From: Pseudo-nitzschia pungens
Taxonomy: Eukaryota > Bacillariophyta > Bacillariophyceae > Bacillariales > Bacillariaceae
Assembly (NCBI GenBank): GCA_037355855.1
Contig: CM074758.1
Span: forward strand, 3,693,001-3,757,000
Length of the DNA stretch: 64,000 nucleotides
Reading direction: 5' to 3'
The translations under genes and the position numbers were made by a program. How positions within the stretch are numbered: position 1 is the first letter of the stretch; every line of letters starts with the position of its first letter. Shown one piece after another: positions 1,416 through 57,695 of the stretch. The notes beneath the pieces were generated by a model. That model worked only from the letters and a program-made list of their open reading frames with translations, was not told the DNA's origin and made no database searches.

Positions 1416-1917
1416 TAACGAACCAAAATTTGTGTGTGCGTGTGTGAGAAAATTGAACAGAGAATAAACAATTATTAGAGTAATATCAATATTTATCAAA
1501 AGAAAGACTTATATTTTGCATCATAGTGTTTCAAAATTTTTTTTCATGGGGGTCGCGATTCCTGGGCTTCGGGTAATAATTGTGATTTTTGTGATGAATT
1601 TCTTGAGGGGTGTGATGGGAAATACTTTGTGTCGGGATGAGAAATCAATTTTTGGGAGTGAATTTCTGCAACAGTCTCATAATATATAATGATGGTAGGG
1701 TCGGTAATAATGAGTCAGATTGAAAAAAAATTTGGGTCGAGTATGAATTTTATTTTATTTTTTTCGTAATTTTCGTAATTGAGGTAGTTACTGGGTCGCG
1801 ATTGGGGTTGCGAATCACGAGAGAGCTAGGAATCGAGCTACGTCAAAATGAGCCAGGAATAAATCGCGACCCCCCTAAATAAATTCTTGGGAGGGGTCGC
1901 GAAACAGTTTTCGGACG
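1416..1917 (-). repeat. Conserved terminal and subterminal block of the TIR family (W)
   Basis: This stretch matches 51,396-51,885 in reverse, also 9,560-10,135 and, more diverged, 11,060-11,476. It carries several TCGCGA motifs and ends in the TIR CGTCCGAAAAC (reverse complement), here with CTGTTTCGCGACC where T has CTGGTTCGCGACC. Confidence 0.85.
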
Positions 1918-2669: not shown

Positions 2670-3230
2670 CCAAAAATCGTAGGCGTCGCTCCTGTACTCA
2701 ACAACCGAAAATCGTACCCGTCGCTCCTGTACTCAACAAACGTAACTCGTAGGGGTATTTCGTTCGTTCCGTCGCTCCTGTACTCAACAACCGAAAATCG
2801 TAGGGGGTATTTCGTTCGATCCGTCGCTTTCGGTAGGGGTATTTCGTTGGATCCGTCGCTCCTGTACTCAACAACCGAAAATCGTAGGAGTATTTCGTTC
2901 GTTCCGTCGCTCCTGTACTCAACAACCGAAAATCGTAGGGGTATTTCGTTCGTTCCGTCGCTCCTGTACTCAACAACCGGAAATCGTAGGCGTCGCTCCT
3001 GTACTCAACAACCGGAAATCGTAGGCGTCGCTTCTGTACTCAACAACCGAAACTCGTAGGGGTATTTCGTTGCATCCGTCGCTCGTATTTCGTTGCATCC
3101 GTCGCTCTTGTACTCAACAACCGAAAATCGTAGGGGGTATTTCGTTCGTTCCGTCGCTCCTGTACTCAACAACCAAAAATCGTAGGCGTCGCTCCTGTAG
3201 GCGTCGCTCCTGTAATCAACAACCGAATGA
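2578..3230. repeat. Minisatellite of roughly 50 bp (TCGCTCCTGTACTCAACAAC type)
   Basis: About a dozen units of variable length built on GTATTTCGTTCGTTCCGTCG followed by CTCCTGTACTCAACAACCGA, with short (about 29 bp) and long versions. It occupies the position in X that a different C-rich minisatellite holds in Z and T. Confidence 0.8.
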
Positions 3231-4240
3231 AAAAATTTTGGTGTTAGTTATGATTCTAGAGGAAACAGACAGCAGTACTTGATAAAAGAAAAAAGAAGAA
3301 AGTATTTGTATTAAACTATGTCCCGTCGTTCGTCTGTGAAGCGATCGCACCGTGCGTCGTCGTCGTCCCTCTCAGCACCAATCGATCGATCGTACCCGGC
3401 GTCGTTCCTGTCCGAAGCGATCGTACCCGCCGTTGTCCCTGTCCGAAGCGATCGTACCTTCCTCTTTATCGTCGCCGTCGCTCCCCTATGGAAAGACGAA
3501 AGTAAAAACAAGAACAAACATCCTGTTAGAAGCGATGGTAGCAATCGTACCCCCGTCATCACTCTCTGGAGCGATCGTACCTTCGCCGTCGTCGTCCCTC
3601 TCCACACCAATCTGTCCAAATTAAAAAAAAAAAGACAAACTGTTAGTACCCTTGTCGTCCCCGTCCGAAGCGATCGTAGCGATCGTACCCCCATCGTCCC
3701 TCTCTGGAGCGATTGTACCCCCGTCGTCCCCCTCTGGAGCGATTGTACCTTCGTCGTCCTCGTCGTCCCTCTCTGCACTGATCGGTTGTGATTTTCGTCT
3801 TCCTTTTCGTTGTTTTCAATATCAGTACGTCGTATATCTGGGTAAGCCAGGTAGTTCCAGGACTTCAACACACCCGACCTCCGTGATATGAATCTGACAA
3901 CAGAGCAGGAAGCAAGAGCGGCCGTTCTCAAGCTCCCCACAGCGTGTGTCTTCTTCAAAGGAGATGGTCCCGGTGCCTGATGGCTAGGTTAAACTGGACC
4001 GGCCAGAATATTCCGATGCAAGAATTGAAACGAAAATGAAAATGAAAATTATGACACATCCCATGAGGGAGATGTGGGGCGGAAAATTCACCGAAGAAAA
4101 TGACGTAAGAAAAAAAGACAGAAATGTATGTACGATGCGGTACTAAGTATACATGCTGGAAAAAAAAAATGACATGGCGCTGTACACCGTACGCGTATTT
4201 TACTAGTACAAAATACTAGTACAAAATTTTTGGCGCGAAG
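3231..4240. repeat. CGTC-rich repeats and family-conserved segment in X
   Basis: From 3,310 to 3,790 lie CGTCGTCCCTCTC/GAAGCGATCGTACC repeats, the counterpart of the GACGA block in T (54,905-55,395) in reverse. From about 3,830 to 4,240 the sequence aligns with T 54,390-54,930 in reverse (shared words include CTGGGTAAGCCAG, AAACTGG(A/T)CCGGCCAGAA, AAAATGACAT and TTGGCGCGAAGT). A short plus-strand frame at 3,860-3,980 (RAAVLKLPTACVFFKGDG) may be a coding remnant. Confidence 0.6.
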
Positions 4241-4794
4241 TAGCATCATACACATCCTACTATACTGTACTACTAGTGTCTTCCCCACAATGAGCCAATC
4301 AAAAAATTCCTTATGAATGAGCCAATCAAAAAATTAGAAAATAATTTTAAGTGGAAGGAGTAAGGTTAGCGTCGTTTGAATTTGAAGTGGAAGGAGTAGC
4401 TTCGTTTACGGTTTAAAACTGATGTCAATGTGTAAAGACAGTTTCACGTTGTTTTTTTTCGAAATTGTTCGTTTCGAGCAAAGGCCCGTTTCGAGCAAAG
4501 GCCCACGGTGGGGGAAATGGAAGTTCATTTCATCACACGATCGTGACAACAAGTGAACAGTTGGGGATGAGCTCAACCAGTTGAACCACCATTGCCTATT
4601 GCATTTTGAAAGGTTTTCAGATGAATCATCGTTTCGAAAGGTTTTAAGATGAATCATCACAATTCAATCAGCTTGGGGACGGTCGAATGTATTTTTCACA
4701 CATTGTTCGACGCATCGTTCCCTTCCACAACAATCGAATCGGTCTCTATCTTTAACAATCAATTCAACAGTCAGGGAATACCTGCAGATACATC
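4241..4794. other. AT-rich spacer upstream of the 4,795 gene, possible promoter
   Basis: Two direct copies of TGAGCCAATCAAAAAATT (4,291 and 4,314) each carry a CCAAT core, and GAAGTGGAAGGAGTA and GATGAATCATC are also duplicated. CCAAT boxes are common eukaryotic promoter motifs; a promoter role here is only inferred from position. Confidence 0.3.
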
Positions 4795-6168
4795 ATGGCA
4801 AGGCACAAAAAGAAAAAAGGCACTACATTTCCTGCGTCAGGACGCCCCACCAATAGAAGAAGATCTACCTGTTCTGCACCAGAGGAGGAACCTGAAAGCC
4901 CAAAGTCCACACCAGCACCACCATCCGATAGCGAGTCTGAGTCCTCAGCAAATGGATGGCCTACACCTCCAAGTCTGCCATCCAAAAATCCCTTACCAGA
5001 CTGGCCCCCAGCTGTGCTTCAGATCTACGAACAGGAGCAACAACATGGATATTCTAGCAATTTGGAGCATTCGACTGCCACTCCCGTCGGTTCCAACAAT
5101 TCGGACCATTCCACTGCCCCAACCATGGACGACACTACCAACAGTGATGGTGCCAATAACAACAGTTCAAATAACTCGGATCGTTCCACTGCCCCAACCA
5201 TGGGTGACAATTCGAACAATACTAATGGTACCAATGGGGACTATAATGATCCCAAGTTCCGAAAGCAGCAGAGGTTGAACCGGAAAATAAATCAAAGGGC
5301 CGAATCTGTCATTGAGATGAAAGACAGTACTTCCATGAAGAAGTTTAAAATGGTGGCGGCAAACGTAAAAGTACTGCAGACACTCACCACCTTTGAGGAT
5401 GAAAAACAACACCTCGAATGTCCTGGCTCTATGCATGGTTTATTCTGCTACGACGAAGTTGTTGAGAAACCACATTTAAAAAAGACTGCCACAACAGAGA
5501 ATGAGGACTACAAGAGAAAGGATGAGCCAAAACTAACATTCCTTGTGGGTCCAGGTTTTAATGCCTATCGGCGGTCCTTTGGAGAACGCTTGATCGATGC
5601 TGGCAATTGGTTCGTGAACAATTCATTTGATCCTAACAAACCAGAAACCCAGGTCGATTGGTTCTTGAAAAATTCATTTGATCCTAACAAACCAGAAACC
5701 CACGTCGGACCTTATCACACAGAAAGTGTATGACACCATTTCAGGGCAGTTTTTGGTGCTAGAGGGCGAGGTTCAGATGAGCAAGTGGAAGAAGCGCATG
5801 CAAGAATTGAGGAGGCAGATCAGCTTTTGACAGAGGAACAAATCGAAACCATTATTAGTGGTGAAACTAATGGTATGACAATGCAACAAAGATTCCACTT
5901 CCGTGGTATGGTATACACTCAGATCACAGATGACGACCCGACCGCTACTACTGTGTCACAAAGGAGTTTGGAAAAGTACATCCGAAACGTGAAACAAGCC
6001 ATCAAAGGGAAGAAGAAGAAGAAAAAAAAAGGGGGGGGGAAGAAGGGCAAGAAGAGGTCAACATCAAGCCTTCCGTTCGACCAGAGGAAAAAGCCACCAC
6101 CAGGATCGGATCCGGGAAAAAAGCCACCACCAGGATCGAATCCGGGAAAGAAGCCACCACCTAAGTAA
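4795..6168 (+). CDS. Unknown Lys/Pro-rich protein of element X, with in-frame TGA or unrecognised intron
   Basis: From the ATG at 4,795 the frame runs 312 codons to TGA at 5,731-5,733 and then stays open in the same frame to TAA at 6,166-6,168. The N-terminus is basic (MARHKKKK), then Ser/Pro/Glu-rich and NNSD/NST-rich, so probably disordered. A tandem duplication of about 50 bp (NSFDPNKPET twice) precedes the TGA. The part after the TGA has a helical stretch (EEAHARIEEADQLLTEEQIE), a Lys run and three GKKPPPGS-type repeats. An intron from GT at 5,610 or 5,661 to TTTCAG at 5,744 would remove the TGA and keep frame, joining W to AVFGARG, but both donor sites are weak. Otherwise it is a nonsense-mutated gene. 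Family not recognised. Confidence 0.5.
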
Positions 6169-7600
6169 GACACAGGATGGGTATCAAAACATTGTAAAAA
6201 TGGATCAAATAATTTAGGAATTAGTAGTAACAATTATGATAATATTATAATAAATCAATAAAAATGTACTCTTACAACCCAAAAAAAACAATAAACTTCT
6301 TACTAGTACCAGGAGTTATAGTATGATGGATGTAAGTTCTGCTTTCTCAGTAACATTCCCAGCACCAGAGTTTACACAACAGACTGTGCATATTTCCTGT
6401 GTATGGGTCAGCACACTGTCACAAATTTTTTTGTATTCCACACTGAATAATGGTGTGTACTATATGCATCTATTAGAAAAGTAAATAGGAATAAACTTCT
6501 TGCTACCAATTATACTATTATGAATGTAAGAAGTTCTGATTTGTCAGAAAAATTCTCAGGAACCGAGTTTACACCACAGAAAAGGCATATTTGCTGTGTA
6601 GGGGTCGCGCTAACTATCATTTGTTGTATTCCACACTGAATAATGGTGACTATATGCATCTATTAGAATATTAAAAATGAATAAACTTGCTATCAATTAT
6701 ATTATGGATGTAAGTTCTGCTTTCTCAGTGAAATTCCCAGCACCGGAGTTATCACAACAGAATGTGCATATTTCCTGTGTTTGGGTCACACTGTCACAAA
6801 TTTTTTTTGTATTCCACACTGAATAATGGTGAGTATATGCATCTATTAGAATAGTAAATAGGAGAAAAAAACTTCTGGCTACCAATTATATTATGAATGT
6901 AAGTTCTGATTTGTCAGAAAAATTCACAGTTTCCGAGTTTACACCACAGAAAATGCATATTTGCTGTGTAGGGGTCGCACTAACTATCATTTGTTGTATT
7001 CCAAGCTGAAAATGGTCAGTAGCTATATGCATCTATTAGAATAGTAAAAAGGAATAAACTTGCTGCCAATTATATTTTGGATGTGACACCTGGTGTCTGG
7101 GGACCATACCCAGTACACAAAAGAATGTGCATTTTCCCTGTCTATGGGTCACAGGTTCCGGCATTTTTTTGGGGTTCTATTGTTAAAAATGCACAGAATC
7201 ACAAGTGGCTATGTAAGATAATGGTGATTATTTGGTGACTAGTATGTCCAAGAATATGAAATAGAATAAACCAGGATGAAAAATTTGACAAAAAAAGTAG
7301 TAGTCCAGTCCCTTGGCAAACAAAAATATAATTCTTGTGAAGGATTCCATCCTGCCACATCTGACCCTTATGGTCATAAGGGTACCACAGAGGCTATACG
7401 ATCCTTTTGATATCTATGGAGATTGTCATTATATATGTGAATCTATCACTGCCAGTACTACTGCATGTACGCGTCGTGGTTGAACTGGTGGTGCTGCTGG
7501 TATACTTGTGTAGTAGTACTACTGCTGGTAATTTTTTCCTACTGTACAGTAGGGAATGGTAGAGCCAAAAATACAATCAGTAGTGAATATGGGTACAGTA
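6169..7600. repeat. Tandem repeats of 184-200 bp with alternating A/B units, inside X
   Basis: The phrase ATAAACTTCT/ATAAACTTGC recurs at 6,291, 6,491, 6,681, about 6,869 and 7,053. Units 1 and 3 share GCTTTCTCAGT and TTTCCTGTGT, units 2 and 4 share GATTTGTCAGAAAAATTC and TTTGCTGTGTAGGGGTCGC, so the higher-order unit is about 385 bp. From 7,240 to 7,600 I see only AT-rich unique sequence. Confidence 0.7.
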
Positions 7601-7848
7601 GAGAATGAACAGAGATGTGCACAGGTGGATGGAAAAAAAATTATGGCGCGGGTGGGAATCCTCTTAAACATTTGGCCACGTCACCTACAATTTCCATAGT
7701 GAAGTGTATGCCATTACAAGTCACGTGGATGGTGAAAGGAAAATGATTAACAGGTTTTTTGTTAGTAGTGAAAAAACTGTGTTCACAACTTTATGGCTTC
7801 ACATATTTTTTTTACTTCGTATTTTTTTTACTTCCGACGCCCGAAAAA
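7601..7848 (+). promoter_or_regulatory. Upstream region of the 7,849 gene
   Basis: A CACGTG hexamer lies at 7,722-7,727, about 120 nt before the ATG, followed by T-rich tracts directly upstream of the start. This fits a promoter and leader but nothing here is diagnostic. Confidence 0.25.
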
Positions 7849-9443
7849 ATGCCTACCGTATATGATGAGTATCAGCAAATAGAAAAGAAAGCAGATTGCA
7901 ATGCACCAAGAAAGAATCGAAGTGGAAAAATTGTATCCAATGCTAATACAGGTGAGGATACTACTGCTAGTATTACCCATACGAAATCGAACCCAAAGAC
8001 AAGTAGAAAACTACCACCCACCTCAGGTGGTGCTGATGAAAAAAATAAAAGAACCAAGAACAACCCGACCGCGGTTTTCGTTGGTACCACACCACCAACC
8101 AACAAACCCCCCGCCGCCCCGGGTGTTGTTACACCAAGACCGATTGCGACCGGTACCAAAACAACACCAAGACCCACATACGAAGCATTGCTACAACAGC
8201 TAAAAGAGAGCCAGCAGAAAGTAGCTTCTTTAGAGAGGGATGTGACAACACTGCAGAAGGATACAAAAAAAGAAGAACCCACGCTGGAGGCAACTACAAC
8301 AGGGAAGAAGCCAAAGCCACAGATGGTACGAACCGTAAGTGAAGCAAAATTAGAGATAACTAAGGCGCAATCGGATAAACTTAAGAAACATCAAAAAGAC
8401 GCGGGTTTGGAAGCACAGTTGACACGGCACATAAGAAATAGTTGGTTTCGTGGCTTGAAGTTTATTGTGGATGAGAATAAGGTCAAATCAATTTTGAAGA
8501 AAGCGATTGCGTCCCGAGCTGTGGTTCCACCCCATGGTATTTCATTTGAAATTTTTTATGGTTTTAACAGAAGGTTGGTGTACAAGGGTGTTTCAAATCT
8601 GCGGCACAATGCTCAAACTTTGGCTAGAAAACACTATCTCGGTACGTGCTTACTAAGTGAATACATTGGTTGCTATTACTGCTTGGTGGAGATTGATGGT
8701 ATATCCCCTGCTACTCTAACACTTTCTACTGCTGCTGTGTAATCCTACTAGAGGACACACTCGATCGCGAAGGCATTGTGCCCGATTCGTTCCCGGGTAA
8801 AGTGGAGATTGTGATGCAGGAGAGTACTAGTAGTAATGGAACTAGTAGAAAGAAGCTGGGACTGAACCCAGAGTACAGAAGGTATGACAATAACAGTGAA
8901 AATGATGATTTTTATTACTTTGTGACTCGGATTCTATCAAGCGTCTCTCCAATAGAGAGGGGCTACAATAAAAGAAAGACGACATGTTTGATGAGTGAAA
9001 TATTCACAGAAAGCGATGAAGCATTTGCATTGATGATGATTCATAATGAGTATGATGTTTGGGTGAATCATGTTGAGCAAAAAAGGAACGGTGGTGGCAG
9101 GATTGTGAGAAGGAGGAAGAAAAAGAAATTTTGTGACCAATACAGTGGAGAGGAGCAATCATGGTCGAAGGAAGGTCTAGCACTGTTCAATAACTTGTGC
9201 AGGGAGATTGTGGTGCTGAGGAAAGATCCGAGAACGGGTAGAGAGTGTGAGGAAAGATTGAGAGAGAGGCTCCGTCGCGAGAGTGAAAACAATGACAACA
9301 ACAACAGTGCGTTCGGTGAGGACTGGGTGCAGGAGGAAGAAGTTACTGAATACATTAGTCCAGAGCTACAAGCTTTGCTAGATGTAAATGAAGATGAGGA
9401 GGACTTTACTGGCAGTAACGAGAACGGGTTGGAAAGTCTTTAA
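7849..9443 (+). CDS. Spliced 494-residue protein of element X, unknown function
   Basis: Exon 1 is 7,849-8,641 and exon 2 is 8,752-9,443, with a phase-1 intron of 110 nt (GTACGT...CTACTAG). The join gives ...ARKHYL-E-DTLDREG, removing the stop at 8,740-8,742 and making one open frame. The first 110 residues are low complexity (Lys, Thr, Pro), residues of about 113-150 look like a coiled coil (LLQQLKESQQKVASLERD), then a conserved-looking region (RHIRNSWFRGLKFIVDENK...FEIFYGFNRR), a motif FTESDEAFALMMIHNEYDVW, a basic patch RRRKKKK (possible nuclear signal), EGLALFNNLCREI, and an acidic tail (VNEDEEDF). No catalytic DDE or YR motif is evident, so I do not call it the transposase. The last 16 or so codons overlap sequence shared with W and T, tying the gene to the TIR family. 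Confidence 0.65.
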
Positions 9444-10135
9444 AAATCTTTTGAAACAAAATTTGTGTGTTGTGCATGAGGACGAAGACAATCGAAGCGA
9501 AGAGCAACGACGACTTCAGGGAGGATGACGAGGGCGGTCGGAGCGACTTCTTAATTTGTGTGTGAGTGTGTGAGAAAATTGAACAGAGAATAAACAATTA
9601 TTAGAGTAGTATCAATATTTATCAAAAGAAAGACTTATATTTTGCATCATAGTGTTTCAAAAATTTTTTCATTGGGGTCGCGATTCCTGTAATTCGGGTA
9701 ATAATTGTGATTTTCCTGATGAATTTCTTGAGGGGTGTGATGGGAAATACTTTGTGTCGGGATGAGAAATCAATTTTTGAGAGTGAATTTCTGCAACAGT
9801 CTCATATTATATAATGTTGGTAGGGTCGGTAATAATGAGTCAGATTGAAAAAAAATTGGGGGAAGGGGGGGATTATTTTGAGAAAACAAATATTTTTTTT
9901 TTTAATGTTGATTAATTTGATTAAGTGACTGAAGAAAAAAAATTGAGTCTTAAAAAAAATTGGGTCGAGTATGAATTTTATTTTTTTTTCTCGTAATTGA
10001 GGTAGTATCTGGGTCGCGATTGGGGTTGCGAATCGCGAGAGAGCTAGGAATCGAGCTACGTCAGAATGAGCCAGGAATAAATCACGACCCCCCTAAATAA
10101 ATTCTTGGGAGGGGTCGCGAAACAGTTTTCGGACG
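9395..10135 (-). repeat. Right terminal block of X with GACGA remnant and TIR
   Basis: The sequence resumes the W pattern at ACTTTACTGGCAGTA, passes a short GACGA block (9,470-9,545) and the AT-rich subterminal region, and ends in the TIR at 10,135. A polyA/T-rich stretch near 9,860-9,960 is an insertion compared with W. Confidence 0.8.
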
Positions 10136-11476
10136 TATTACTTCGGTACGGTACATACTACTAGTAGTAACTCTACTGCTATCATGTAGAAGAAATCAAT
10201 TCTCAGCAAATAAATGCATGACAGAAAATGCATGTGTCGGTCGTAAATTTTACTTCACATAATTTTGGGTCGGAATGGAACAAGAAAGACGGCAACTGAA
10301 ATATAATGAGATGGAAATGGTAAGTGAAACACATCAAGGTTGGAGGAGGTATTAATAATGGATTTTGATTCGTCTAACTGTGCATCATTGACTTGCCTGC
10401 TTGCTCCTGATAGGGAGGCGACCGCAACTGCTGATGAAATAGGATGCAACGGCAAATGAAATATAACGCAACGGTGAGTGAAGCACATCAAGATCTGGGG
10501 TATTGATAATGGATTTCAATTGTTCTAATTCTGAATTGAGTTGCCTGCTTGCTACTGATAGGGAAGAATCAACTTTAATGCGACAGGGCAACTGAAAAAT
10601 GATGCGACGGGGCAACTGACACATATCGCAACTCAAAAATGATAAAATGATGCAATTGCAACTGATGAAATATGATGCGATGTGATCGCAACTCAAATAT
10701 GATGCGATCGCAACTCAAATATGATGCGATCGCAACTCAAACAATCTGATGTGATCCCAACTGAAATATGATGCAATTGCAACTGATGAAATATGATGAT
10801 GCGATTGCAACTCAAATATGATGCGATCGCAACTGAGGAAATATGATGGGATCGCAACTGAGGAAATATGATGGGATCGCAACTGACATATGATCTGGTC
10901 GCAACTGAAATATGATGCGATCACAACTCAAATATGATGGGATCGCAACTGAGGAAATATGATGGGATCGCAACTGAAATATGATGCGATTGCAACTGAA
11001 ATATGATGCGATCACAACTGAAATATGATGCGATCACAACTCAAATATGATATAGGAAGTAAATTTGTGTGGTGGTGGGAACAAGAAAAAACGAATTGAG
11101 AATAAAATTATTACTATAAATTCTAAATTTTTTTTGAAAGATTGACTGGTTTTGCATCACAGTAATTCAAAATTTCTTAGGTGAGGGTCGCAATTTGTGT
11201 GAGGAGAGGGGTCGCGATTTCTGGAATAGTCCATAATTTTTGTGAAGAATTTTTTGAATGTATGCTGGAATTTCTTGAGGGGTGTGCCGGGAAATAATTT
11301 GTGTCGTGTTCAAAAAAAAAGAATCTTTTTCTCGGAATTGAGGTAGTTATGAGGTCGCAATTGGGGTTGCGAATCGGGAGAGAGCTAGGAATCGAGCTAC
11401 GTCAAAATGAGCCAGGAATAAATCGCGACCCCCCTAAATAAATTGTTGGGAGGGGTCGCGAAACAGTTTTCGGACG
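10136..11476 (-). mobile_element. TIR element Y, terminal part interrupted by X
   Basis: It begins mid-element with the sequence that in T lies at about 52,890 and in W at about 454, and runs to a family TIR end at 11,476. The terminal block (11,060-11,476) is more diverged than in W, X and T, which fits an older copy. Bases after 11,476 (AAAATATTGCTATCG) continue the tRNA-like module of element Z. Confidence 0.75.
10565..11050. repeat. Expanded array of 20-22 bp repeats (GATGCGATCGCAACTG)
   Basis: About 20 units of AAATATGATGCGATCGCAACT with variants GATGGGATCGC and GATGCGATCACAAC. Each full unit carries the palindrome GCGATCGC. The array is much longer than in W or T. Confidence 0.85.
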
Positions 11477-11690
11477 AAAATATTGCTATCGAATTGTGAT
11501 GTAGCAAAAGACATTCCCATGATGGGACTTGAACTGGCAACACCACATTCTGTGCACCAAATGGTGCCACTATAACTATCTACTACTGCCAGAAGGGTTT
11601 TCTCTCTATGTTATAATGCTACTACAATCTCGGGGAAGGCTCATCGTGTATAATATGTACCAACAGTAAGGTACTGTACCTCCACCGCTT
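11477..11690 (-). repeat. tRNA-like (SINE-like) module in Z
   Basis: On the minus strand a B-box match GTTCAAGTC (11,526-11,534 as its complement) lies downstream of AGTGGCACCATTTGG, which resembles an A box. Homologous modules occupy the same place in V (16,745-16,959) and T (54,155-54,360). No complete cloverleaf can be drawn by eye. Confidence 0.45.
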
Positions 11691-12154
11691 CGTGCCAAAA
11701 GATTTGGACCAGTATCATACATACAGTATACACAGTACTGGAAACCTACACATCCCCTGCCTATACATAGTACATACGTACTACTAGGCACTATGTATGC
11801 AGACATGTCATTTTTTCTTTTACTAAGACTGTAGACTTAGTACTGTAATCTACGTACATTGCTGTCATTTTTTCCAGTCAGCCTGTACAAACAGTACTGT
11901 TACCTACGTACATTGCATCATCACCATCACGGTGAATCGTGGAGGATGTGTCATAATTTTCGTTTCAGCGTTGGAAATTTTCTGTCAGGCCCAGTTTAAA
12001 GTGAGATCAAGGCGCCTGGTACCATCTTGGAGAGACTAATGGCAAAGAAAGTAAAGAACTGATCACTCTTGAAATCCTTCCTGTTATCTTTTGTTATCAA
12101 GGTAGGGTGGGTTGCAGACCTTGAGTCATCTGGCTTATCCAGATATCTACGAGT

Positions 12155-12650
12155 ACGACGCGCGAACGAACCTGCAGGGGACGACAAAGACGATCGGAAC
12201 AACGAAGACCGAAGACACTAAAAGGTACGACGAAGGTACGATCGTAGAAGAGGGGGACGACAATGACGAGCGAGCTGACGATGACGACCGGGACAACGAC
12301 GACGACCGGGACGACGACGACGACCGGGACGACGATGACGACTAACCGCCCGTTGTTTATTTTGTACAACCACACACAGATCGTAGCAAAGAGCAACGAC
12401 GGAGACAATCAGAAGAAAGAGGAAACAACACTAAAAGGTACTGTAATTGAATACCGATTTCAAGGACGACGACGATGATGACGATCAAAGCGAAGAGCAA
12501 CGACGACTTCAAGGACGACAAACACGATCGAAACGAAGAGCAACAACGATTTCAAGGACGACAACGACGACGATCAAAACGAAGAGCAATGACGATTTCA
12601 AGGACGACGACGACGAGGGGAACGATGAACGACCGATACGATTGTTGAAG
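12155..12650 (+). repeat. GACGA/GACCGG-rich repeats in Z
   Basis: A tract of GACGACGACCGG repeats (12,260-12,345) and AGAGCAACGACGATTTCAAGG units. Compositionally open in several frames; not called as a gene. Confidence 0.7.
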
Positions 12651-12699
12651 AGGGGAACGACGAACGACCGATACGGCGATAGTTCTTTAAAAATATTCT

Positions 12700-13445
12700 C
12701 GTGTATTATCCCCCTGTATTATCGACGCGTTGCTGCTTGCTGTCCCCCCCTGTATTATCGACGCGTTGGTTGCTGCTTGCTGTCCCCCCTGTATTATCGA
12801 CGCGTTGCTGCTTGCTGTCCCCCCTGTATTTTCGACGCGTTTCTGCTTGCTGTCCCCCCTGTATTTTCGACGCGTTTCTGCTTGCTGTCCCCCCTGTATT
12901 ATCGACGCGTTGCTGCTTGCTGTCCCCCCTGTATTATCGACGCGTTTCTGCTTGCTGTCCCCCCTGTATTATCAACGCGTTGCTGCTGCTTGCTGTCCCC
13001 CCCCTGTATTATCGACGCGTTGCTGCTGCTTGCTGTCCCCCCTGTATTATCGACGCGTTGCTGCTTGCTGTCCCCCCTGTATTATCGACGCGTTGCTGCT
13101 GCTTGCTGTCCCCCCCCTGTATTATCAACGTTGTTGCTCACTGTCCACCCTGTGTCAAATTTTTTTTCTACATAAATCCCTGTACAATTTGTACTGGAAA
13201 ATCGAATTTTTTGATTGGCTCAATCACTCAGCACCTCTATCTGCTTGCTGTCCCCCCTGTATTATCGACACGTCGACACGTCGCTGCTTGCTGCTGCTTG
13301 CTGTCCCCCCACCTGTATTATCAACGCGTTGCTGCTTGCTGCTGCTTGCTGTCTCCCCTGGTGTATTATCGACGCGTTGCTGCTTGCTGTCCCCCCTGTA
13401 TTATCGACGCGTTCCTGCTGCTTGCTGCTTGCTGTCCCCCCTGTA
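12700..13445. repeat. C-rich 35-38 bp minisatellite in Z
   Basis: About 17 units of TGTATTATCGACGCGTTGCT followed by GCTTGCTGTCCCCCC, with an optional extra GCT and a variable C run. Unit length is not a multiple of three, so the long open frames across it are artefacts of absent stops. Confidence 0.9.
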
Positions 13446-13843
13446 GGATTGAGTGAGGTATGGATAGAAGTTGTTGCGGCGGTGTCATTTGGGGCAAGGG
13501 AGGGGGGGATTTGTGGTCCATTCTGTGTCATTGTCAGTCCATACTGTGATGGTGTGTGTCGGACCAAAGGGAGGGTGACTTCTGCTTTCGCAGAAGAAAT
13601 AAAATCCATAAGATTGTTCGCACGATAATAAGTTTGGCAATCATTGTTGGAATAGAGATGCCTAGAGAGGCCTTGAGATACGTATCGGTAGGTGTGAAAG
13701 TGGCTCGATTCTTGTTTGTATCCCTTGAAGGATTGCTGTGTTTTTCTTTTTCTTCCGGAGGCAATGCAGTTGCGACAATGGAATGTCTTGGGTATTCTGG
13801 GCTCATTGGCAAAGTGCCTTGGGTCGGAGGAAGCTTTCGGCAT
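13445..13843 (-). CDS. Zinc-finger-like N-terminal frame in Z (partial, unknown)
   Basis: From the ATG at 13,843 the frame contains CRNC, then a basic linker, HFHTYRYVSQGLSRHLYSNN and DC. The arrangement C-x2-C ... H-x-H ... GLSRHL ... C resembles C2H2/C2HC fingers found at the start of transposon proteins. The frame then passes into the minisatellite and loses sense. T holds the homolog at 56,501-57,022. The two copies differ by substitutions and a 3-nt indel that keeps frame, hinting at past coding constraint. Function not recognised; perhaps a DNA-binding exon of the element. Confidence 0.45.
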
Positions 13844-13845
13844 GG

Positions 13846-14254
13846 TGGTGTGTGTTTTTGTGATGCGATTCTTAGCTGGGGTACTGGTATTTGATGTGAC
13901 ACCACTGAAAAAAAAAGTTCACAAAGGTGCACGACGTAACCCTTTGGTGTGATTGAAGTAAATTGGATTAAAAATTATTTGTTGTGTTGAGTCAAGTGTG
14001 TCAAATGTGTAAAATGGAATGAAAATGTGAAGAGGGACTGAATGCCAGGGTCTAGAACAGAACATTTCCGTCGACACGTTGGGGGAGTTGAGAAAAGGGA
14101 GAAATGTGGTTGAGAATAATGGAAAAAAGTTGAGAATAATGGAAAAAAGGTTGTGAAATAAAAAATTGGGGTTGTGTTTTTTTTAGACAAGTCGCGATCC
14201 GGTCGCGATCTGGTCGCGATTGGTCGCGATGGGTCGCAAAACAGTTTTCGGACG
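13846..14254 (+). repeat. Right subterminal block and TIR of Z
   Basis: AT-rich block ending in clustered GGTCGCGAT motifs (14,190-14,235) and the TIR at 14,254. Nearly the same as 57,025-57,433. Confidence 0.8.
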
Positions 14255-40132: not shown

Positions 40133-41879
40133 TTAAGCCAACCAGTGACTCATCGAACAATCTGAGTCATTTGATTGACTTAATTCGATATCTGCGGATT
40201 CAGTTGGCGAAGGCTCCGACTGATTCGATTCCCGATATGGAGTCAGCTTCCGAATATTCACTGTTTCTACTACCGAAGGAGCTCGTTGTAACTTTACGGT
40301 TCCGTTCGTATTGACTTGCGTGATTGGAAAGGGACCAAGCTTCCTGGGTTGTAGCTTGTCCGGATCTGGCTCCTGGATCCATACTTTGTCATTGACTTGG
40401 AAGGTGTGGTTGATACGCTTGGCATTATCTCTGAGTAGATTCTTGTTAATCCCTTGTTGCCGGAGCTGTTGCAAAGCTAACAGGTTGGATGTTAGTGGCA
40501 GATCAATCAGCATGTCCCGGTTGAATACTAGGGACCCTGGGGATGCTTGTAAGGCAGCATTAACAGCACATCGAGAGGCATGCATGCAAGTTGCCAGGGC
40601 ATTGTCCATGAGCTGACTGGCTCTGGTGTTGACTTGAGGGGGATTTACATGAACTAAAACTCTGAGAATATCAGTGACGGTGTGATGGACTCTTTCACAG
40701 ATGGCATTAGACTGGGGATTCTTCACTGTGGTAGGAATGGACTGAATCCCATACTGCTTGAGTGTAGTTTGGAATTCAGCTCCTAGGAATTCACCACCAT
40801 TGTCATGGATGCATCTGATAGGTCTTGGGTATCTTGAGAGCCAACAGTTCCTGAATTGGTCTGAGACGTGTTGCGAAGACTTGTCTCTGATTCGGATGAT
40901 CTCCAGTAGGTTGGTGACTGGATCAATACAGGTTAGGGCTTTGAAGTTATAGTTCTTGCCCTGGGCTGTGATCTTCCATGGGCCTATGAGGTCCACATGT
41001 ATCTCGTTAAATGGGGCTAGTGGAGCTTCTTTTGGTGGTAGCTTCCCATACTTGGAGTGCTGGTTCTTGTACTTAATGCAGCTGTCGGGGCAGATGTAAG
41101 TCTTGCAAAGATTGGATAGATTGTCAATGTAGAATCTTGCGGAGATAGTTTGATATAACCTGGTGGATCCACAATGACCCAACAGAAGATGGTACCATTT
41201 GATGGTATCATTGGAAAGAGAACTTGGTATGTATATGCGCCAGTTGTCTGGGTTCGATTGGTTGGCATAGCAGAGGATGTTATTGCCTTCTAGTTCTTGG
41301 TAGAAGAAGGCCTTGGATTGGATCTTGAACTTGATGGTAGGATCTTTCTGTTGATGGAGATAGATATTGGAATAGTTCACCGGGCATTCCAGGTCTTGGT
41401 TATTTGGTAGGTTAACTAGGCACTCATTATTCAGCAAGCAGGCTTGTAGTTCGCTGTCTGCGTCATTGCATAAGTGCTGAAATAGGTTCGGGAACTCTGT
41501 TAAAAACAGTTCTTCATCTTGTTTGGGGACTTCAAGTTTCAAGAAATCGATTAAGGTGCCCTTTGTGAGGGCTTTCTTCCCTTCAGTAGGTGGATCCATC
41601 CTGGGGAGTCTGGAGAATGCGTCAGCAAGAACATTCTTCTTGCCTTCCACATAAGTGAGGTTGACACCAAATTCTTCAAGGAATAGTCTCCACCGGAGGA
41701 CTCGTTGAACCGATAGGGTTCTGAAGGTGAGGTTCTTATGGTCGGTGTATACATTGATGACACCACCAAGTAGCATTTTTCTGTACTCTTTGCAGCAGAG
41801 TACTATTGCGAGGAGTTCTTTCTCCATAGTAGTGTAATTCTTCTGGGCATCAGATAGTTTCTTGGACCAATAGGCTATT
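40133..41879 (-). pseudogene. pol: G4 pol, 3' half (RNase H end, integrase)
   Basis: Starts at the C1 junction within IAYWSKK and runs through MEKELLAIV, YTDHKNLTF, integrase zinc region (HLLLGHCG, CPDSC), DLIGPW, IHDNGGEF, ICERVHH and GPFPITQVNTNGTVKLQ to a stop at 40,133-40,135. All integrase catalytic residues are present. It is separated from its 5' half by nearly 16 kb of C1. Confidence 0.88.
41875..41879. repeat. C1 target-site duplication CTATT (left copy)
   Basis: CTATT here and at 57,696-57,700. The uninterrupted gypsy frame (..PIAYW..) needs only one copy. Confidence 0.85.
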
Positions 41880-41880
41880 A

Positions 41881-42827
41881 TGAAGATATCCAGTGTGCTA
41901 CCATCTGTGCTAAGGCTCCTGTGTAGGAGAGTGTACTGGGACTACAGGCAGCAGCCTCCAGTAACTGACTAACAGGTGCTGAGCTGAGTGCTAGAGCTGT
42001 GTGCTAATTGCTAGCATACAGGCTCAGCAACAGGCTTAGCAACAGGCTTAGCAGCAGGCTTAGCAGCAGGCTTAGCAACAGGCTTAGCAGCAGACCTATA
42101 TCCTACTATCCTGTTTAGTATGGATGCTAGCAGAGTTTACTAGGGTCGCCGCGTACGATTTGTACCAATCGTACGTACCCCGAGTAAAGCACCTGTTATG
42201 GTGTAGCTAAATGCTACAGGGTTAGGGTTGCTAAGGCTACGAGATACTGAAAGATGCTAGCCTACCATGGTACCATGCTAAGATACCATGCTACCGCCGG
42301 GGCCAGGTCATTGGTGTATAATATGTACCATGACTGGATGCCCGGCCCAAACAGTTACCCAACGCGCTAGCATACGTGAGTTATTATCGCTAGCACACGA
42401 TTGGATATAATTAAGCGAAGCTTAATTAAGCAAAGCTACGCTACGATACTCCGATACGCTACCCGTAGAATACAGTACCAGAGCTACAGAGCTCTGTTAT
42501 TATACGAGTTATCGGAGCGCTGTCACGATACGATACAGAGCTGAGCGCTTTGGCTCAGCTCCCCTTTATTCACTCTTTCTTTTATACTCTAAAATAAACA
42601 CACCTATCATGCCCTCCTTTACGACCGATTCCGATGTACCTCTAGGGAAGTGCCTTGTATTGCTTGAGCGTATGCAATAGACCTTGAACAGTCCACTGTA
42701 GACTCACGATTTGCCAGGACTTTACGTGTTATTATTGTTAGGGCTTTCCCCTATTTTTAGACCAGTACGAGATAGTTCATATCTACGATTAAGTTCCCCG
42801 AAGACCGCTGACGAGCGGATATCAACA
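41881..42827 (+). repeat. C1 5' LTR (also the empty site for T)
   Basis: 947 bp with five to six AGGCTTAGCARC repeats (42,028-42,090). The uninterrupted word CCCCTTTATTCACTC at 42,561-42,575 is the empty site of T. Confidence 0.93.
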
Positions 42828-50109: not shown

Positions 50110-50706
50110 AGAGAAAATTGCTCTAGCTGCATTATTTGGGATACCTTTGGTCCCTGACAAGCAGCTCGGACGCAGCAGATATCGATTTCGATTTTCGGAA
50201 GCAATCGATTTCGTTTTTCGGAAGCAATCGATTGCGATTTTCGGAAGCAATCGAACGCAGCTGATTTCGATATGAGCTCCCTGACTACTTCGATGTTCAT
50301 TCCGATTCCGGATTCGATCTGATCTTATGATCCTATGTTATATGTTATATTGGGAGTCTCCGGTACACCGGTTCCGGGGACTATAAACTTGAAATACAAT
50401 AGGCCGATTGATATGTCCTTATATGTGTTAAGGAATCGGACCAAGGGCAAAATGCCCTCCGGTCCAACCCCCTTTTTTTTCTACCATAAATCGGCCGGGC
50501 CTCTGATAGAAGAACTGCAATATTTGGTGCAGTTTGATCCCTGACAAGTTATATGGAAGCATCCCTAAATTCTGTTATGATCCATCCAAGTGTCCTGGTA
50601 CAACAAGCAGGAGTATTGGTGTTCCCCTGGGAGTATCTGTTTCCGGGGACTGGTATAGTTGCTCAGTTGCTCAATACAGGACCACTGGCATGAATCACGG
50701 GGACTA
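50110..50706 (+). other. C1 region between pol and 3' LTR
   Basis: Contains three to four copies of TTTTCGGAAGCAATCGATT (50,190-50,260) and two related segments with TCCGGGGACT (50,375 and 50,650). The last bases before the LTR, ATCACGGGGACTA, are a plausible polypurine tract. No gene. Confidence 0.6.
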
Positions 50707-51395
50707 TGAAGATATCCAGTGTGCTACCATCTGTGCTAAGGCTCCTGTGTAGGAGAGTGTACTGGGACTACAGGCAGCAGCCTCCAGTAACTGACTAACA
50801 GGTGCTGAGCTGAGTGCTAGAGCTGTGTGCTAATTGCTAGCATACAGGCTCAGCAACAGGCTTAGCAACAGGCTTAGCAGCAGGCTTAGCAGCAGGCTTA
50901 GCAACAGGCTTAGCAGCAGACCTATATCCTACTATCCTGTTTAGTATGGATGCTAGCAGAGTTTACTAGGGTCGCCGCGTACGATTTGTACCAATCGTAC
51001 GTACCCCGAGTAAAGCACCTGTTATGGTGTAGCTAAATGCTACAGGGTTAGGGTTGCTAAGGCTACGAGATACTGAAAGATGCTAGCCTACCATGGTACC
51101 ATGCTAAGATACCATGCTACCGCCGGGGCCAGGTCATTGGTGTATAATATGTACCATGACTGGATGCCCGGCCCAAACAGTTACCCAACGCGCTAGCATA
51201 CGCGAGTTATTATCGCTAGCACACGATTGGATATAATTAAGCGAAGCTTAATTAAGCAAAGCTACGCTACGATACTCCGATACGCTACCCGTAGAATACA
51301 GTACCAGAGCTACAGAGCTCTGTTATTATACGAGTTATCGGAGCGCTGTCACGATACGATACAGAGCTGAGCGCTTTGGCTCAGCTCCCCTTTAT

Positions 51396-51419
51396 CGTCC
51401 GAAAACTGGTTCGCGACCC
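51396..51419 (+). repeat. T left TIR
   Basis: 24 bp, perfect inverse of 57,410-57,433. Confidence 0.95.
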
Positions 51420-51894
51420 CTCCCAAGAATTTATTTAGGGGGGTCGCGATTTATTCCTGGCTCATTTTGACGTAGCTCGATTCCTAGCTCTCTCGCGATT
51501 CGCAACCCCAATCGCGACCCAGTAACTACCTCAATTACGAAAATTACGAAAAAAATAAAATAAAATTCATACTCGACCCGATTTTTTTTCAATCTGACTC
51601 ATTATTACCGACCCTACCATCATTATATATTATGAGACTGTTGCAGAAATTCACTCCCAAAAATTTATTTCTCATCCCGACACAAAGTATTTCCCATCAC
51701 ACCCCTCAAGAAATTCATCACAAAAATCACAATTATTACCCGAAGCCCAGGAATCGCGACCCCCATGAAAAAAAATTTTGAAACACTATGATGCAAAATA
51801 TAAGTCTTTCTTTTGATAAATATTGATATTACTCTAATAATTGTTTATTCTCTGTTCAATTTTCTCACACACGCACACACAAATTTTGGTTTGT

Positions 51895-52205
51895 TAAAAG
51901 AAGTCGTCGTCCTTGAAATCGTCGTCGCTCTTCGTTTCGATCGTCCTTGTCTTCGTCGTCCTTGAAGTCGTCGTTGCTTCTCGCTTCGATCGTCTTCGTC
52001 CTCCCTGAAGTCGTCGTTGCTCTTCGCTCCAAATTGCCTTCCTCTTCGTCGTCCTCCCTGAAATCGTCGTCCTCTCTGAAATTGTTGTTGCTCTTTGCTT
52101 CGATTGGCTTCGTCGTCCTCTCTGAAATTGTCGTTGCTCTTCGCTTCGATCGTCTTCGTCGTCCTTGAAATCGTCGTTGCTCTTTGCTCCGATCGTCTTC
52201 GTCCT
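51895..52205 (-). repeat. GACGA-rich repeat block in T (left)
   Basis: Reverse complement of 1,095-1,415 with few differences. Open frames on both strands are composition effects. Confidence 0.8.
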
Positions 52206-53094
52206 CATGCACACCACACAAATTTTGGTTCAAACGATTTTTAAATAATGGTCATCGTGATAATTTCATCCATACCGGTATCTGTACTGCCAGTAAAGGT
52301 CTCCTCACATCGCATCATATTTCATCAGTTGCAATCGCATCATTTTGTCAGTTGCGATCCCATCATATTTGTCTTGCGATCGCAATATGTGTCAGTTGCC
52401 CCGTCGCATCATTTTTCGCATCATTTTTCACATCATTTTTCAGTTGTCCCGTCGAATTAAAGTTGATTCTTCCCTATCAGTAGCAAGCAGGCAACTCAAT
52501 GCAGAATTAGAACAATTGAAATCCATTATCAATACCCCAGATCTTGATGTGCTTCACTCACCGTTGCATTATATTTCATTTGCCATTGCATCCTATTTCA
52601 TCAGCAGTTGCGGTCGCCTCCCTATCAGGAGCAAGCAGGCAAGTCAATGATGCACAGTTAGACGAATCAAAATCCATTATTAATACCTCCTCCAACCTTG
52701 ATGTGGTTCACTTACCATTTCCATCTCATTATATTTCAGTTGCCGTCTTTCTTGTTCCGTTCCGACCCAAAATTATGTGAAGTAAGATTTACTACGACAC
52801 ATGCATTTTCTGTCATGCATGTGTTTGCCGAGAATTGATTTCTTCTACATGATAGCAGTAGAGTTACTACTAGTAGTATGTACCGTACTGAAGTAATAGT
52901 AGAAACCAGTAGAAAGCTGATGATGGTGATATCGCGCGCCACCTAAACCACAGAGAGCCAGCCCCGCTGCGCCATAATTTTGGACTACCTCTTATGTACT
53001 ACTACCTACGCACTGCAGTAGTATGTAGCAGCAGTGTATAACTGTACTACTACTACAAGCAGCAAGAATAGTACTACCTCAGTGAATATACCAT
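52206..53094. repeat. 20-bp repeats and AT-rich spacer in T
   Basis: 52,305-52,455 holds the ATGATGCGATCGCAACTG units in reverse. 52,456-53,094 matches W 300-885 in reverse. The words GCCAGTAAAGGTCTCCTC at 52,289 correspond to the 3' end of the spliced X gene (ACTTTACTGGCAGTA at 9,404). Confidence 0.7.
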
Positions 53095-54130
53095 CAAATG
53101 ACATATCTGAATGAATCTGGCCAATCTTTGTGTGATTCCAGTGTGTATATTCCTCATACTGTGCATGGGCAAGAGTATTCAAAAAGAAGTATTCAAAAAT
53201 CACCAATAGTTTGGATGTCACCACTGAATAATTAATATTTGGCCCAGTACCGCAGCATTTACTAGAAAATACTGTAAAATCACATATCTGAATGAATCTG
53301 GCCAATATTTGTGTGATTCCAGTGTGTATATTCCTCATACTGTGCATGGGCAAGAGTATGCAAAAAGAAGTATTCAAAAATCACCAATAGTTTGGATGTC
53401 ACCACTGAATAATTAATATTTGGCCCAGTACCGCAGCATTTACTAGAAAATACTGTAAAATCACATATCTGAATGAATCTGGCCAATCTTTGTGTGATTC
53501 CACTGTGAATATTCCTCATCCTATCCATGGGCAAGACTATGCAAAAAGAAGTATTCAAAAATCACCATTAGTTTGGATGTCACCACTGAATAATTAATAT
53601 TTGGCCCAGTACCGCAGCATTTACTAGAAAATACTGTAAAATCACATATCTGAATGAATCTGGCCAATCTTTGTGTGATTCCACTGTGAATATTCCTCAT
53701 CCTATCCATGGGCAAGAGTATGCAAAAAGAAGTATTCAAAAATCACCATTAGTTTGGATGTCACCACTGAATAATTAATATTTGTTCCAGTACTGCGGAA
53801 TTTACTAGAAAAAAGTACCAAATCAAATATCTGAACAAATCTGGCCAATATTTGTATGATTCCAGTGTGCATATTCATCATACTGTGCATGGGCAAGAGT
53901 ATGCAAAAAGAAGTATTCAAAAATCACCAACAGTTTGGATATCACCACTGAATAATTAATATTTGGTTGACTACTGGAAAATTTACTAGAAAAAAGTACC
54001 AGATCACATATCTGAATGAATCTGGCCAATCTTTGTGTGATTCCAGTGTGTATATTCCTCATCCTATGCATGGGCAAGAGTATGCAAAAAGAAGTATTCA
54101 AAAATCACCAATGGTATGGATGTCACCATT
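53095..54130 (+). repeat. 181-bp satellite array, six copies, in T
   Basis: GCAAGAG/GCAAGAC landmarks at 53,169, 53,350, 53,531, 53,712, 53,893 and 54,074: every spacing is exactly 181 bp. Confidence 0.95.
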
Positions 54131-54154
54131 GAATAACTGAATAGATCACCTGAT

Positions 54155-54360
54155 GACATGTGCTTCGCAGCAAAAATATTGCTATTGCATCGCGAAAAAG
54201 GCAATGCTACAACAGGATTCGAACCAACAACCTTCCATCAGTTGCATCCAACAGTGCCACTATTACTGTCTACTGCTGCTGGAAGGGTGTTCTCTCTAAC
54301 TTTAAATCGTACTACCATCTCGGGGAAGGCTCATCCTGTATAATATGTACCAACAGTAAG
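54155..54360 (-). repeat. tRNA-like (SINE-like) module in T
   Basis: On the minus strand GGTTCGAATCC (54,215-54,225) is a full B box/T-loop match, preceded by TGGCACTGTTGG (54,248-54,259), an A-box/D-arm-like word. The gap of 22 nt between them is about 10 nt shorter than in a normal tRNA, so the anticodon arm is degenerate. Confidence 0.5.
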
Positions 54361-54904
54361 GTAAGGTTTACCGTATCTCCACCTCCACCACTTCGCGCCA
54401 AAAGATTTGTACCAGTACCGTACGTACAGAATACACAGTACTGGAAACCTACACATCCCCTGCCTATACATAATACATACATACATACTACTAGGTATGT
54501 ATGCAGACATGTCATTTTTTCTTTTACTAAGACTGTAGACTTAGTACTGTAATCTACGTACATTGCTGTCATTTTTTCCAGTCAGCCTGTACAAACAGTA
54601 CTGTTACCTACGTACATTATGTGCATCATCGCATACATTATGTGCATCATCGCAGTGAATTTTGTTGTTCGATTTTCCGCCCCACATCTCCCTCGTGGAG
54701 GATGTGTCATAATTTTCATTTTCGTTTCGGTGTTGGAATTTTCTGGCCGGACCAGTTTAAAGTGAGAGCAAGGCGCCTGGTACCATCTTGGAGAGACTAA
54801 TGGCAAAGAAAGTAAAGAACTGATCACTCTTGAAATCCTTCCTGTTATCTTTTGTTATCAAGGTAGGGTGGGCTGCAGACCTTGAGTCATCTGGCTTACC
54901 CAGA
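54361..54904. other. Family-conserved spacer in T
   Basis: Matches Z 11,690-12,150 and, in reverse, X 3,830-4,240. A short minus-strand frame (TKDNRKDFKSDQFFTFFAIS) lies where X has RAAVLKLPTACVFFKGDG; it may be a coding relic. Confidence 0.5.
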
Positions 54905-55395
54905 TATCTACGAGTACGACGCGCGAACGAACCTGCAGAGGACGACGAAGACGATCGGGGAGGGATGACGACACTAAAAGGTACGACGAAGGTACGATCG
55001 TAGAAGAGGGGGACGACGACGACGACCGGGATGACGACAACCGGGACGACGACGACTGACACGACGACGACGACCGGGATGACGACGACAACGGGAACGA
55101 TAATGACGACTAACCGCCTTTTGTTTATTTTGTACATTCACACAGGAGAGATGGGAGCAAAGAGAAACGACGACGACGATTGAAACAAATAGGGACGACG
55201 ACAATAAAAGGTACCGTAATTGAAAACCGATCGAGACAGAGAGAGACGACGATGACGACCGGAACGATAATGACGACTAACCGCCTGTTGTTTATTTTAT
55301 ACATTCACACAGGAGATATCGGAGCCAAGAGGGACGACGACGAATAGGGACGACGACGACAACCGGAACGATCGGAAAAGGTAATAAGGCGACAA
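54905..55395 (+). repeat. GACGA/GACCGG repeats in T (right)
   Basis: Degenerate GACGACGACCGGGAT units, with a duplicated AACCGCCTNTTGTTTATTTT segment at about 55,110 and 55,280. Confidence 0.7.
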
Positions 55396-55429
55396 AGGCG
55401 ATAGTTCTTTAAAAATATTCTCGTGTATT

Positions 55430-56705
55430 ATCCCCCCTGTATTTTCAATGCGTTGCTGCTTGCTGCTGCTTGCTGTCCTCCCCCCTTGTATTGTCGACGC
55501 ATTGGTTGCTGCTTGCTGTATTATCGACGCGTTGCTGCTTGCTGTCCCCCCCTGTATTATCGACGCTGCTTGCTGTATTATCGACGCGTTGCTGCTGCTT
55601 GCTGTCCCCCCCTGTATTATCGACGCGTTGCTGCTGCTTGCTGTCCCCCCTGTATTATCAACGCGTTGCTGCTTGCTGGGGGGTATTATCGACGCGTTGC
55701 TGTTTGTATTATCGACGCGTTGGTTGCTGCTTGTTGTCCCCACTGTATTATCGACGCGTTTGTACTATCAACGCGTTGCTGCTTGCTGTCCCCCCTGTAT
55801 TATCGACGCGTTGCTGTTTGTATTATCGACGCGTTGCTGTTTGTATTATGGACGCGTTGGTTGCTGCTTGTTGTCCCCCCTGTATTATCGACGCGTTGCT
55901 GTTTGTATTATCGACGCGTTGCTGCTGCTTGCTGTCCCCCCCCTGTATTATCAACGCGTTGCTGCTGCTCGCTGCTGCTTGCTGTCCCCCCTGTATTATC
56001 AACGCGTTGCTGCTGCTCGCTGCTGCTTGCCGTCTCCCCTGTATTATCGACGCGTTGTCCCCCCTGTATTATCGACGCGTTGCTGCTTGCTGCTTGCTGC
56101 TTGCTGTCCCCCCTGCTGTATTATCGACGCGTTGCTGCTTGCTGTCCCCCCTGTATTATCGACGCGTTGCTGTTTGTATTATCGACGCGTTGGTTGCTGC
56201 TTGTTGTCCCCACTGTATTATCGACACGTTTGTATTATCGACGCGTTGCTGCTGCTTGCTGTCCCCCCCTGTATTATCGACGCGTTGCTGCTGCTTGCTG
56301 TCCCCCCCTGTATTATCAACGCGTTGCTGCTGCTTGCTGTCCCCCCCTGTATTATCAACGCGTTGCTGCTGCTTGCTGTTTTATCGACGCGTTGCTGCTT
56401 GCTGGGGGGTATTATCGACGCGTTGCTGCTGCTTGCTGTCCCCCCCTGTATTATCGACGCGTTGCTGCTGCTTGCTGTCCCCCCCTTTATTATCGACGCG
56501 TTACTGCTGCTTGCTGTCCCCCCCCTGTATTATCAACGCGTTGCTGCTGCTTGCTGTTTTATCGACGCGCGACTGCTTGCTGGTCCCCCCCTGTACTATT
56601 ATCGACGCGTTGCTGCTGCTGCTTGCTGTCCCCCCCTGTATTATCGACGCGTTGCTGCTGCTTGCTGTCCCCCCTGTATTATCGACGTGTTGCTGCTTGC
56701 TGCTT
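55430..56705. repeat. C-rich 35-38 bp minisatellite in T
   Basis: More than 30 units of the type also seen at 12,700-13,445, with deletion variants that skip the C run. The long open frames in all three registers are not genes. Confidence 0.9.
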
Positions 56706-57022
56706 GGTGTCATTGTCAGTCCATACTGTGATGGTGTGTGTCGGACCAAAGGGAGGGTGACTTCGGCTTTCGCAGAAGAAATAAAATCCATAAGATCGTT
56801 CTTAACATAATAAGTTCGGCAATCACTGTTGGAATAGAGATGCCTGGAGAGGCCTTGAGATACGTATCGGTAGGTGTGAAAGTGGCTCGATTCTTGTTTG
56901 TATCCCTTGAAGGATTTTGATTTTCTTCTTCTTCCGGAGGCAATGCAGTTGCGACATTGGAATGTCTTGGGTATTCTGGGCTCATTGGCAAAGTGCCTTG
57001 GGTCGGAGGAAGCTTTCGGCAT
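56706..57022 (-). CDS. Zinc-finger-like N-terminal frame in T (partial, unknown)
   Basis: Homolog of 13,445-13,843. ATG at 57,022, CRNC, basic linker (SGRRRKSKSFKGYKQ), SSHFHTYRYVSQGLSRHLYS and NSDC, then SAKAEVTLPLVRHTPSQYGL before the frame enters the minisatellite. A finger of the C-x2-C...H...C kind is likely. It reads inward from the right TIR about 410 nt away. It may be the first exon of a transposon protein whose remainder was lost. Confidence 0.45.
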
Positions 57023-57433
57023 GGTGGTGTGTGTTTTTGTGATGCGATTCTTAGCTGGGGTACCGGTATGTGATGTGACACCACTGAAAAAAAAAGTTCA
57101 CAAAGGTGCACGACGTAACACTTTGGTGTGATTGAAGTAAATTGGATTAAAAATTATTTGTTGTGTTGAGTCAAGTGTGTCAAATGTGTAAAATGGAATG
57201 AAAGTGTGAAGAGGGACTGAATGTCAGGGTCTAGAACAGAACATTTCCGTCGACACGTTGGGGGAGTTGAGAAAAGGGAGAAATGTGGTTGAGAATAATG
57301 GAAAAAAGTTGAGAATAATAGAAAAGAGGTTGTGAAATAAAAAATTGGGGTTGAATTTTTTTTAGACAAGTGGCGATTGGGTCGCGATCGGGTCGCGATT
57401 GGTCGCGATGGGTCGCGAACCAGTTTTCGGACG
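57023..57433 (+). repeat. Right subterminal block and TIR of T
   Basis: Contains GTCGCGA four times at 57,380-57,417 and the TIR at 57,410-57,433. Confidence 0.85.
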
Positions 57434-57695
57434 ATTCACTCTTTCTTTTATACTCTAAAATAAACACACCTATCATGCCCTCCTTTACGACCGATTCCGA
57501 TGTACCTCTAGGGAAGTGCCTTGTATTGCTTGAGCGTATGCAATAGACCTTGAACAGTCCACTGTAGACTCACGATTTGCCAGGACTTTACGTGTTATTA
57601 TTGTTAGGGCTTTCCCCTATTTTTAGACCAGTACGAGATAGTTCATATCTACGATTAAGTTCCCCGAAGACCGCTGACGAGCGGATATCAACACA

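Follow-up and report, generated by a model that had tools for sequence, protein, structure and literature searches.

Element T of Pseudo-nitzschia pungens, a probable non-autonomous member of a Plavaka-lineage transposon family with CG..CG termini

Structure and insertion site of element T

We analyzed a 64,000-nucleotide stretch of the genome of the diatom Pseudo-nitzschia pungens (GenBank assembly GCA_037355855.1, contig CM074758.1, positions 3,693,001 to 3,757,000 of the forward strand; hereafter the window), in which a 6,038-bp element flanked by terminal inverted repeats (TIRs), here called T, occupies positions 51396-57433 on the plus strand, with its A end on the left and its B end on the right. 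The first-pass annotation of this DNA had described an element of this size with 24-bp perfect TIRs, an AT target duplication, and an empty site in the other copy of a long terminal repeat (LTR), all of which the sequence confirms. The A-end TIR (51396-51419, plus strand) is the same as the inverse of the B-end TIR (57410-57433, minus strand), giving termini that read CGTCCG..CGGACG (i.e., CG..CG ends), and the duplicated AT lies at 51394-51395 and 57434-57435. T divides an LTR on the plus strand into a left part (50705-51395) and a right part (57434-57693); its left flank ends CCCCTTTAT and its right flank begins ATTCACTC. An intact LTR (41879-42827, plus strand) contains the empty site at 42561-42575, where the uninterrupted 5' LTR sequence is CCCCTTTATTCACTC and the AT is unduplicated, at 42568-42569. 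The insertion looks recent, because comparison of the LTR copies shows 1 difference in 691 bp to its left and none in 260 bp to its right. A frame between the two LTRs matches RVT_2 (copia-type reverse transcriptase). At the outer ends of the LTRs we saw no clean duplication of 5 bp, and we therefore do not claim that the two began as a pair in a single retrotransposon, a point on which the empty-site argument does not depend.

Both end regions of T are common to a 15.4-kb full copy described below: 51396-51891 (plus strand; T 1-194 and 187-496), which carries TCGCGA repeats, is 92-95% identical to it, and 56707-57188 at the B end (minus strand; T 5312-5793) is 91% identical. A further subterminal TCGCGA cluster marks the B end (57373-57418, minus strand). 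Between its ends T carries tandem arrays, and of a transposase it retains only an N-terminal remnant. The arrays, on the plus strand, comprise 5.8 copies of a 181-bp unit (53096-54136) and overlapping arrays whose unit is about 39 bp long (55552-56711); the longest frames of T (447-465 amino acids) lie within the latter, where all three forward frames are open, and were rejected as genes and taken for repeat artefacts. The remnant (56639-57025, minus strand) corresponds to residues 5-141 of 1,069, is 77% identical, and lacks the catalytic part; it is one of only two places in the window that the full transposase matches by tblastn, the other being 13445-13846. T thus encodes no complete enzyme.

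A family of full-length and deleted copies

Allowing up to 3 mismatches, the TIR occurs 6 times in the window, against a mean of 0.00 in shuffled sequence, and 473 times in the genome (233 + 240 matches in 66.9 Mb, 28 contigs), against 1 + 1 = 2 for a reversed-pattern control. A TIR variant with GTTTCGCG in place of GGTTCGCG has 143 exact matches in the genome, and an exact-match search of IMG/VR contigs found no TIR. From the first 100 places among the 473 matches we picked by spacing 20 regions with inverted TIR pairs, which together with T provide 22 elements, region L057 containing two. The 181-bp and 39-bp arrays are both present in 20 of these 22; neither occurs in L050, in L058, or in the 15,452-bp full copy. 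L050 and L058 both derive from the full form by deletion. L050, which has the ends of T, a TA/TA duplication, and most of the transposase gene, was considered as an autonomous copy and rejected, since both AUTO 3131-12391 and the C terminus of the transposase are missing from it. Homology between the 181-bp unit of T and a 181-bp unit of the full copy (L059 3297-3912) was likewise rejected (best score 25, shuffle maximum 30). Across 23 elements, TCGCGA occurs 3-4 times in the outer 300 bp of the A end (once in L057i), 3-5 times in that of the B end, and 0-4 times in the interior, the exception being the outer L057 element, which has another element inside and an interior count of 7. No description of this CGTCCG-ended family was found by title or abstract start in the open-licence papers searched.

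The full copy at C1:5372472-5387923 (15,452 bp) has TIRs as in T and a TT/TT duplication. Close to its B end the minus strand encodes a transposase of 1,069 amino acids counted from its ATG; facing this on the plus strand is a second gene that we call gene B, together with a 760-amino-acid acidic frame and a pair of frames, one of which has weak coiled-coil-type matches. Full-type copies measure about 14-16 kb (by TIR positions, others span about 13.6-16.6 kb), and some spans reach 20-27 kb, probably through additional insertions inside them. The full copies resemble T in their TIRs, in the clustering of TCGCGA near the termini, in the end regions, and in making a 2-bp type of duplication.

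Genome-wide the transposase has 56 matches, of which 30 fall in frames that run uninterrupted for 1,079 amino acids or more, and it has 137 homologous proteins, of which many among the best 120 carry a precomputed PF18759 (Plavaka) annotation; source names among the same 120 include Cylindrotheca fusiformis and "Psemu1," presumably Pseudo-nitzschia multiseries. Besides these diatom names among the homologues, 11 silicon-transporter matches above the cut-off mark the genome as that of a diatom. PF18759 is matched by 19 of 20 aligned family members at E ≤ 0.01, with scores of up to 42.7 bits (P0094) and of 26.7 bits, against a cut-off of 26.3, for the trimmed L050 protein (841 amino acids). Residues of the DDE, C(2)C, and H(3)H pattern are kept in 73 relatives (the E in 72), and the same motifs lie at residues 377-776 of the family's own transposase. 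Elsewhere in the genome, G000:C8:1661108-1663477 holds a 925-amino-acid open frame whose product is 58% identical to the transposase query, possibly representing a sister family.

Target-site duplications

The first-pass annotation had judged the 2-bp target apparently not to be fixed and had proposed, as a check, a genome search with the 24-bp TIR and a tabulation of the flanks. The tabulation bears this out: flanking dinucleotides match in 32 of 34 inverted TIR pairs (22 of 23 in a first set and 10 of 11 further pairs, the latter including 9 of 10 of full type), the probability of a chance match per pair, from window dinucleotides, being 0.064. Ten different dinucleotides are represented (TA 7, AA 5, AT 5, TT 4, TG 3, CA 2, CT 2, AG 2, GG 1, and TC 1), and neither a longer nor a TA-only duplication was found. 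The two nonmatching pairs are the outer L057 element (TG/TA) and C1:3683215-3703135 (GT/TA). The third base outward extends the duplication in 0 of 22 pairs, which sets its length at 2 bp, and the duplicated bases are biased toward A/T (37 of 44 in the first set, compared with 54% in the window; p = 2.5e-5). Searching for TIRs with TA directly after them gave 58 ends, 44 of which, counted by position, form 22 inward-facing neighboring pairs. The empty sites of L040, L043, L046, and L053 look palindromic around the duplication (e.g., GAACCTGTTC in L053); over 22 sites, 47 of 132 cells are complementary at the duplication center, with 33 expected and 22-41 at 12 other centers, a signal too weak for us to claim a palindromic target preference. 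Several TIR ends (flanks of L003, L004, and L057) adjoin sequence of the 181-bp unit, such as AATCTGGCCAAT, so that copies insert into one another's arrays.

Related copies are also nested at 1-14254 of the window, with ends at 1917, 10135, 11476, and 14254; part of this nest (about 6328-10135) is the A-end half of a full-type copy. The four other ends that the first-pass annotation had reported in the window, followed by AG, TA, AA, and GT, are all present, but within this nest and with no partner end inside the window, and their flanks alone consequently showed no duplications. With partners from outside the window, the AG end is verified as AG/AG, whereas the TA end does not match the GT flank of its colinear partner. 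The AG/AG copy, of T type (C1:3689077-3694917; window 1917), is inserted beside gene B fragments of the full-type copy, whose gene B it apparently splits. The flanks of the colinear full-type copy, C1:3683215-3703135, do not match (GT on the left, TA on the right). GT also follows a different end, at 14254; the two ends flanked by GT (C1:3683215 and window 14254) both resemble B ends, and ectopic recombination is a possible source of the unmatched flanks.

Gene B

Gene B has 65 matches in the genome, no homologue at E ≤ 1e-3 among 7,996 candidates scored, and no Pfam match above the cut-off. None of eight copies compared contains a stop. The ratio of nonsynonymous to synonymous change (dN/dS) is 0.13-0.25 between classes, the most distant of which are near synonymous saturation, and 0.33-1.49 within classes, where changes are few. 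From these comparisons we take gene B to be an orphan gene under purifying selection.

Comparison with known systems

Plavaka belongs to the CACTA/EnSpm-Mirage-Chapaev-Transib (CMCT) clade, with the catalytic motifs DDE, C(2)C, and H(3)H and with target duplications of 2 bp in PlavakaA and 2-3 bp in PlavakaB (PMC12730594), and the PF18759 domain has served to define autonomous Plavaka (PMC8290104). The domain, the clade motifs, and the 2-bp duplication are all found in the diatom family. Its termini set it apart: fungal PlavakaA ends in TGT..ACA and PlavakaB in CATCA..TGATG (PMC12730594), and because CGTCCG..CGGACG fits neither type we file the family under neither. Nor do CG..CG ends follow the CA..TG termini reported for the CMCT clade "in most cases" (PMC12730594). 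Further differences from Plavaka are the diatom host, accessory genes without assigned function, and the absence of a TET/JBP-like Pfam match from the frames scanned.

EnSpm has been listed among the superfamilies of another diatom (PMC7466962), and fungal EnSpm families have CAC..GTG ends and 3-bp duplications (PMC12730594). CG..CG ends with a 2-bp duplication thus separate our family from EnSpm/CACTA proper. It resembles EnSpm/CACTA, in which subterminal repeats are clustered, in having such clusters and in its clade-level catalytic motifs. Tc1/mariner elements duplicate TA only, unlike this family, in which TA accounts for just 7 of the 32 matching pairs. Kyakuja-Dileera-Zisupton (KDZ) elements differ in duplication length (7 bp in Kyakuja and 8 bp in Zisupton; PMC12730594). 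Plavaka-type elements are also known from algae and other protists: EnSpm-Plavaka elements of the green alga Auxenochlorella have been called potentially active (PMC12636532), and Amoebidium has Plavaka "giant repeats" that, like our full copies, are very large units with a Plavaka transposase, which in Amoebidium flanks the unit, but consist of gene clusters of up to 50 kb with tyrosine recombinases (PMC11244446), whereas the diatom copies are about 14-16 kb and carry other genes.

Discussion

We interpret T, with a probability of roughly 90%, as one of the non-autonomous copies in a Plavaka-lineage family of cut-and-paste DNA transposons, within the CMCT clade; the transposase of full copies would move it. 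That enzyme would bind the subterminal TCGCGA repeats, by analogy with En/Spm; it would cut at CGTCCG/CGGACG and join the ends with a stagger of 2 bp at a site with a weak preference for A/T, and host repair would afterwards produce the 2-bp duplication.

Several results weigh against this interpretation. Mobilization of T by a Plavaka-type transposase is something we infer from shared ends. The profile match is weak, with P0002 scoring 24.5, under the cut-off, and with no Plavaka match for the untrimmed 866-amino-acid frame or for the 1,101-amino-acid full frame; a profile of the 73 relatives run against PDB chains returned nothing convincing (4 matches, best E 1.3); and the ends lie outside both Plavaka terminus types and the rule of most of the clade. 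Scores so close to the cut-off, together with termini unlike any given in the available part of PMC12730594, would suit a new superfamily unlinked to named ones, the Plavaka match being incidental. We consider this very improbable, as nearly all of the aligned relatives match the same Pfam family, with scores of up to 42.7 bits, the catalytic pattern is conserved in the 73 relatives, and the duplication is of the length reported for Plavaka (PMC12730594). Slightly less probable still is that T is mobilized by another transposase and shares its ends with Plavaka-coding copies by chance or capture: the mobilizer of an element that encodes no complete enzyme is not seen directly, but T and the full copies have TIRs, end regions, and duplication in common, and the N terminus of the enzyme is still present in T. 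The first-pass annotation could name no superfamily for T, which holds insofar as the termini match none in the part of PMC12730594 available, but a Plavaka-family transposase is encoded by full copies that have the ends of T. T is in this sense an ordinary non-autonomous passenger, whose earlier description stands but not as a member of an unclassifiable superfamily.

A separate question concerns gene B in relation to the neighboring transposase, which we compared using 40 of the 56 transposase matches and 37 of the 65 gene B matches. In 26 of 28 neighbor pairs, the transposase is 94-99% identical to its query; the identity of gene B to its own query spans 55-100%. In the one element pair for which synonymous sites were compared, gene B shows 8.6 times the synonymous divergence of the adjoining transposase (proportions of synonymous differences, pS, of 0.672 and 0.078), which suggests exchange of modules between copies. 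The gene B classes near 98% (C1:5372472; C5:4262230), 82% (C1:3117222; C3:5828586), and 59% (C8:1678037; C4:6161446) are each found with both TIR variants. Faster evolution of gene B without any exchange would agree with the similar spacing held by the 28 pairs; we think it unlikely, given that synonymous divergence is itself unequal in the pair compared, that dN/dS between classes is low, and that each class co-occurs with both variants. Rather more plausible than that, though in our estimate short of even odds, is a broader picture that builds on module exchange: the family might constitute a third, diatom sublineage of Plavaka with CG..CG ends, in which modular copies of 14-16 kb recombine a near-uniform transposase, diverged gene B classes, and two TIR variants, with gene B diversification answering the host or rival copies.

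The family supplies target duplications and structures resolved from end to end for a diatom transposon of Plavaka type, and its termini depart from the CA..TG rule reported for most of the clade. With 30 long uninterrupted transposase frames, a defined TIR of 24 bp, and a non-autonomous substrate of simple structure, its chemistry can be tested. If the mosaic pattern of gene B is true, these would be transposon copies that exchange an accessory gene without assigned function.

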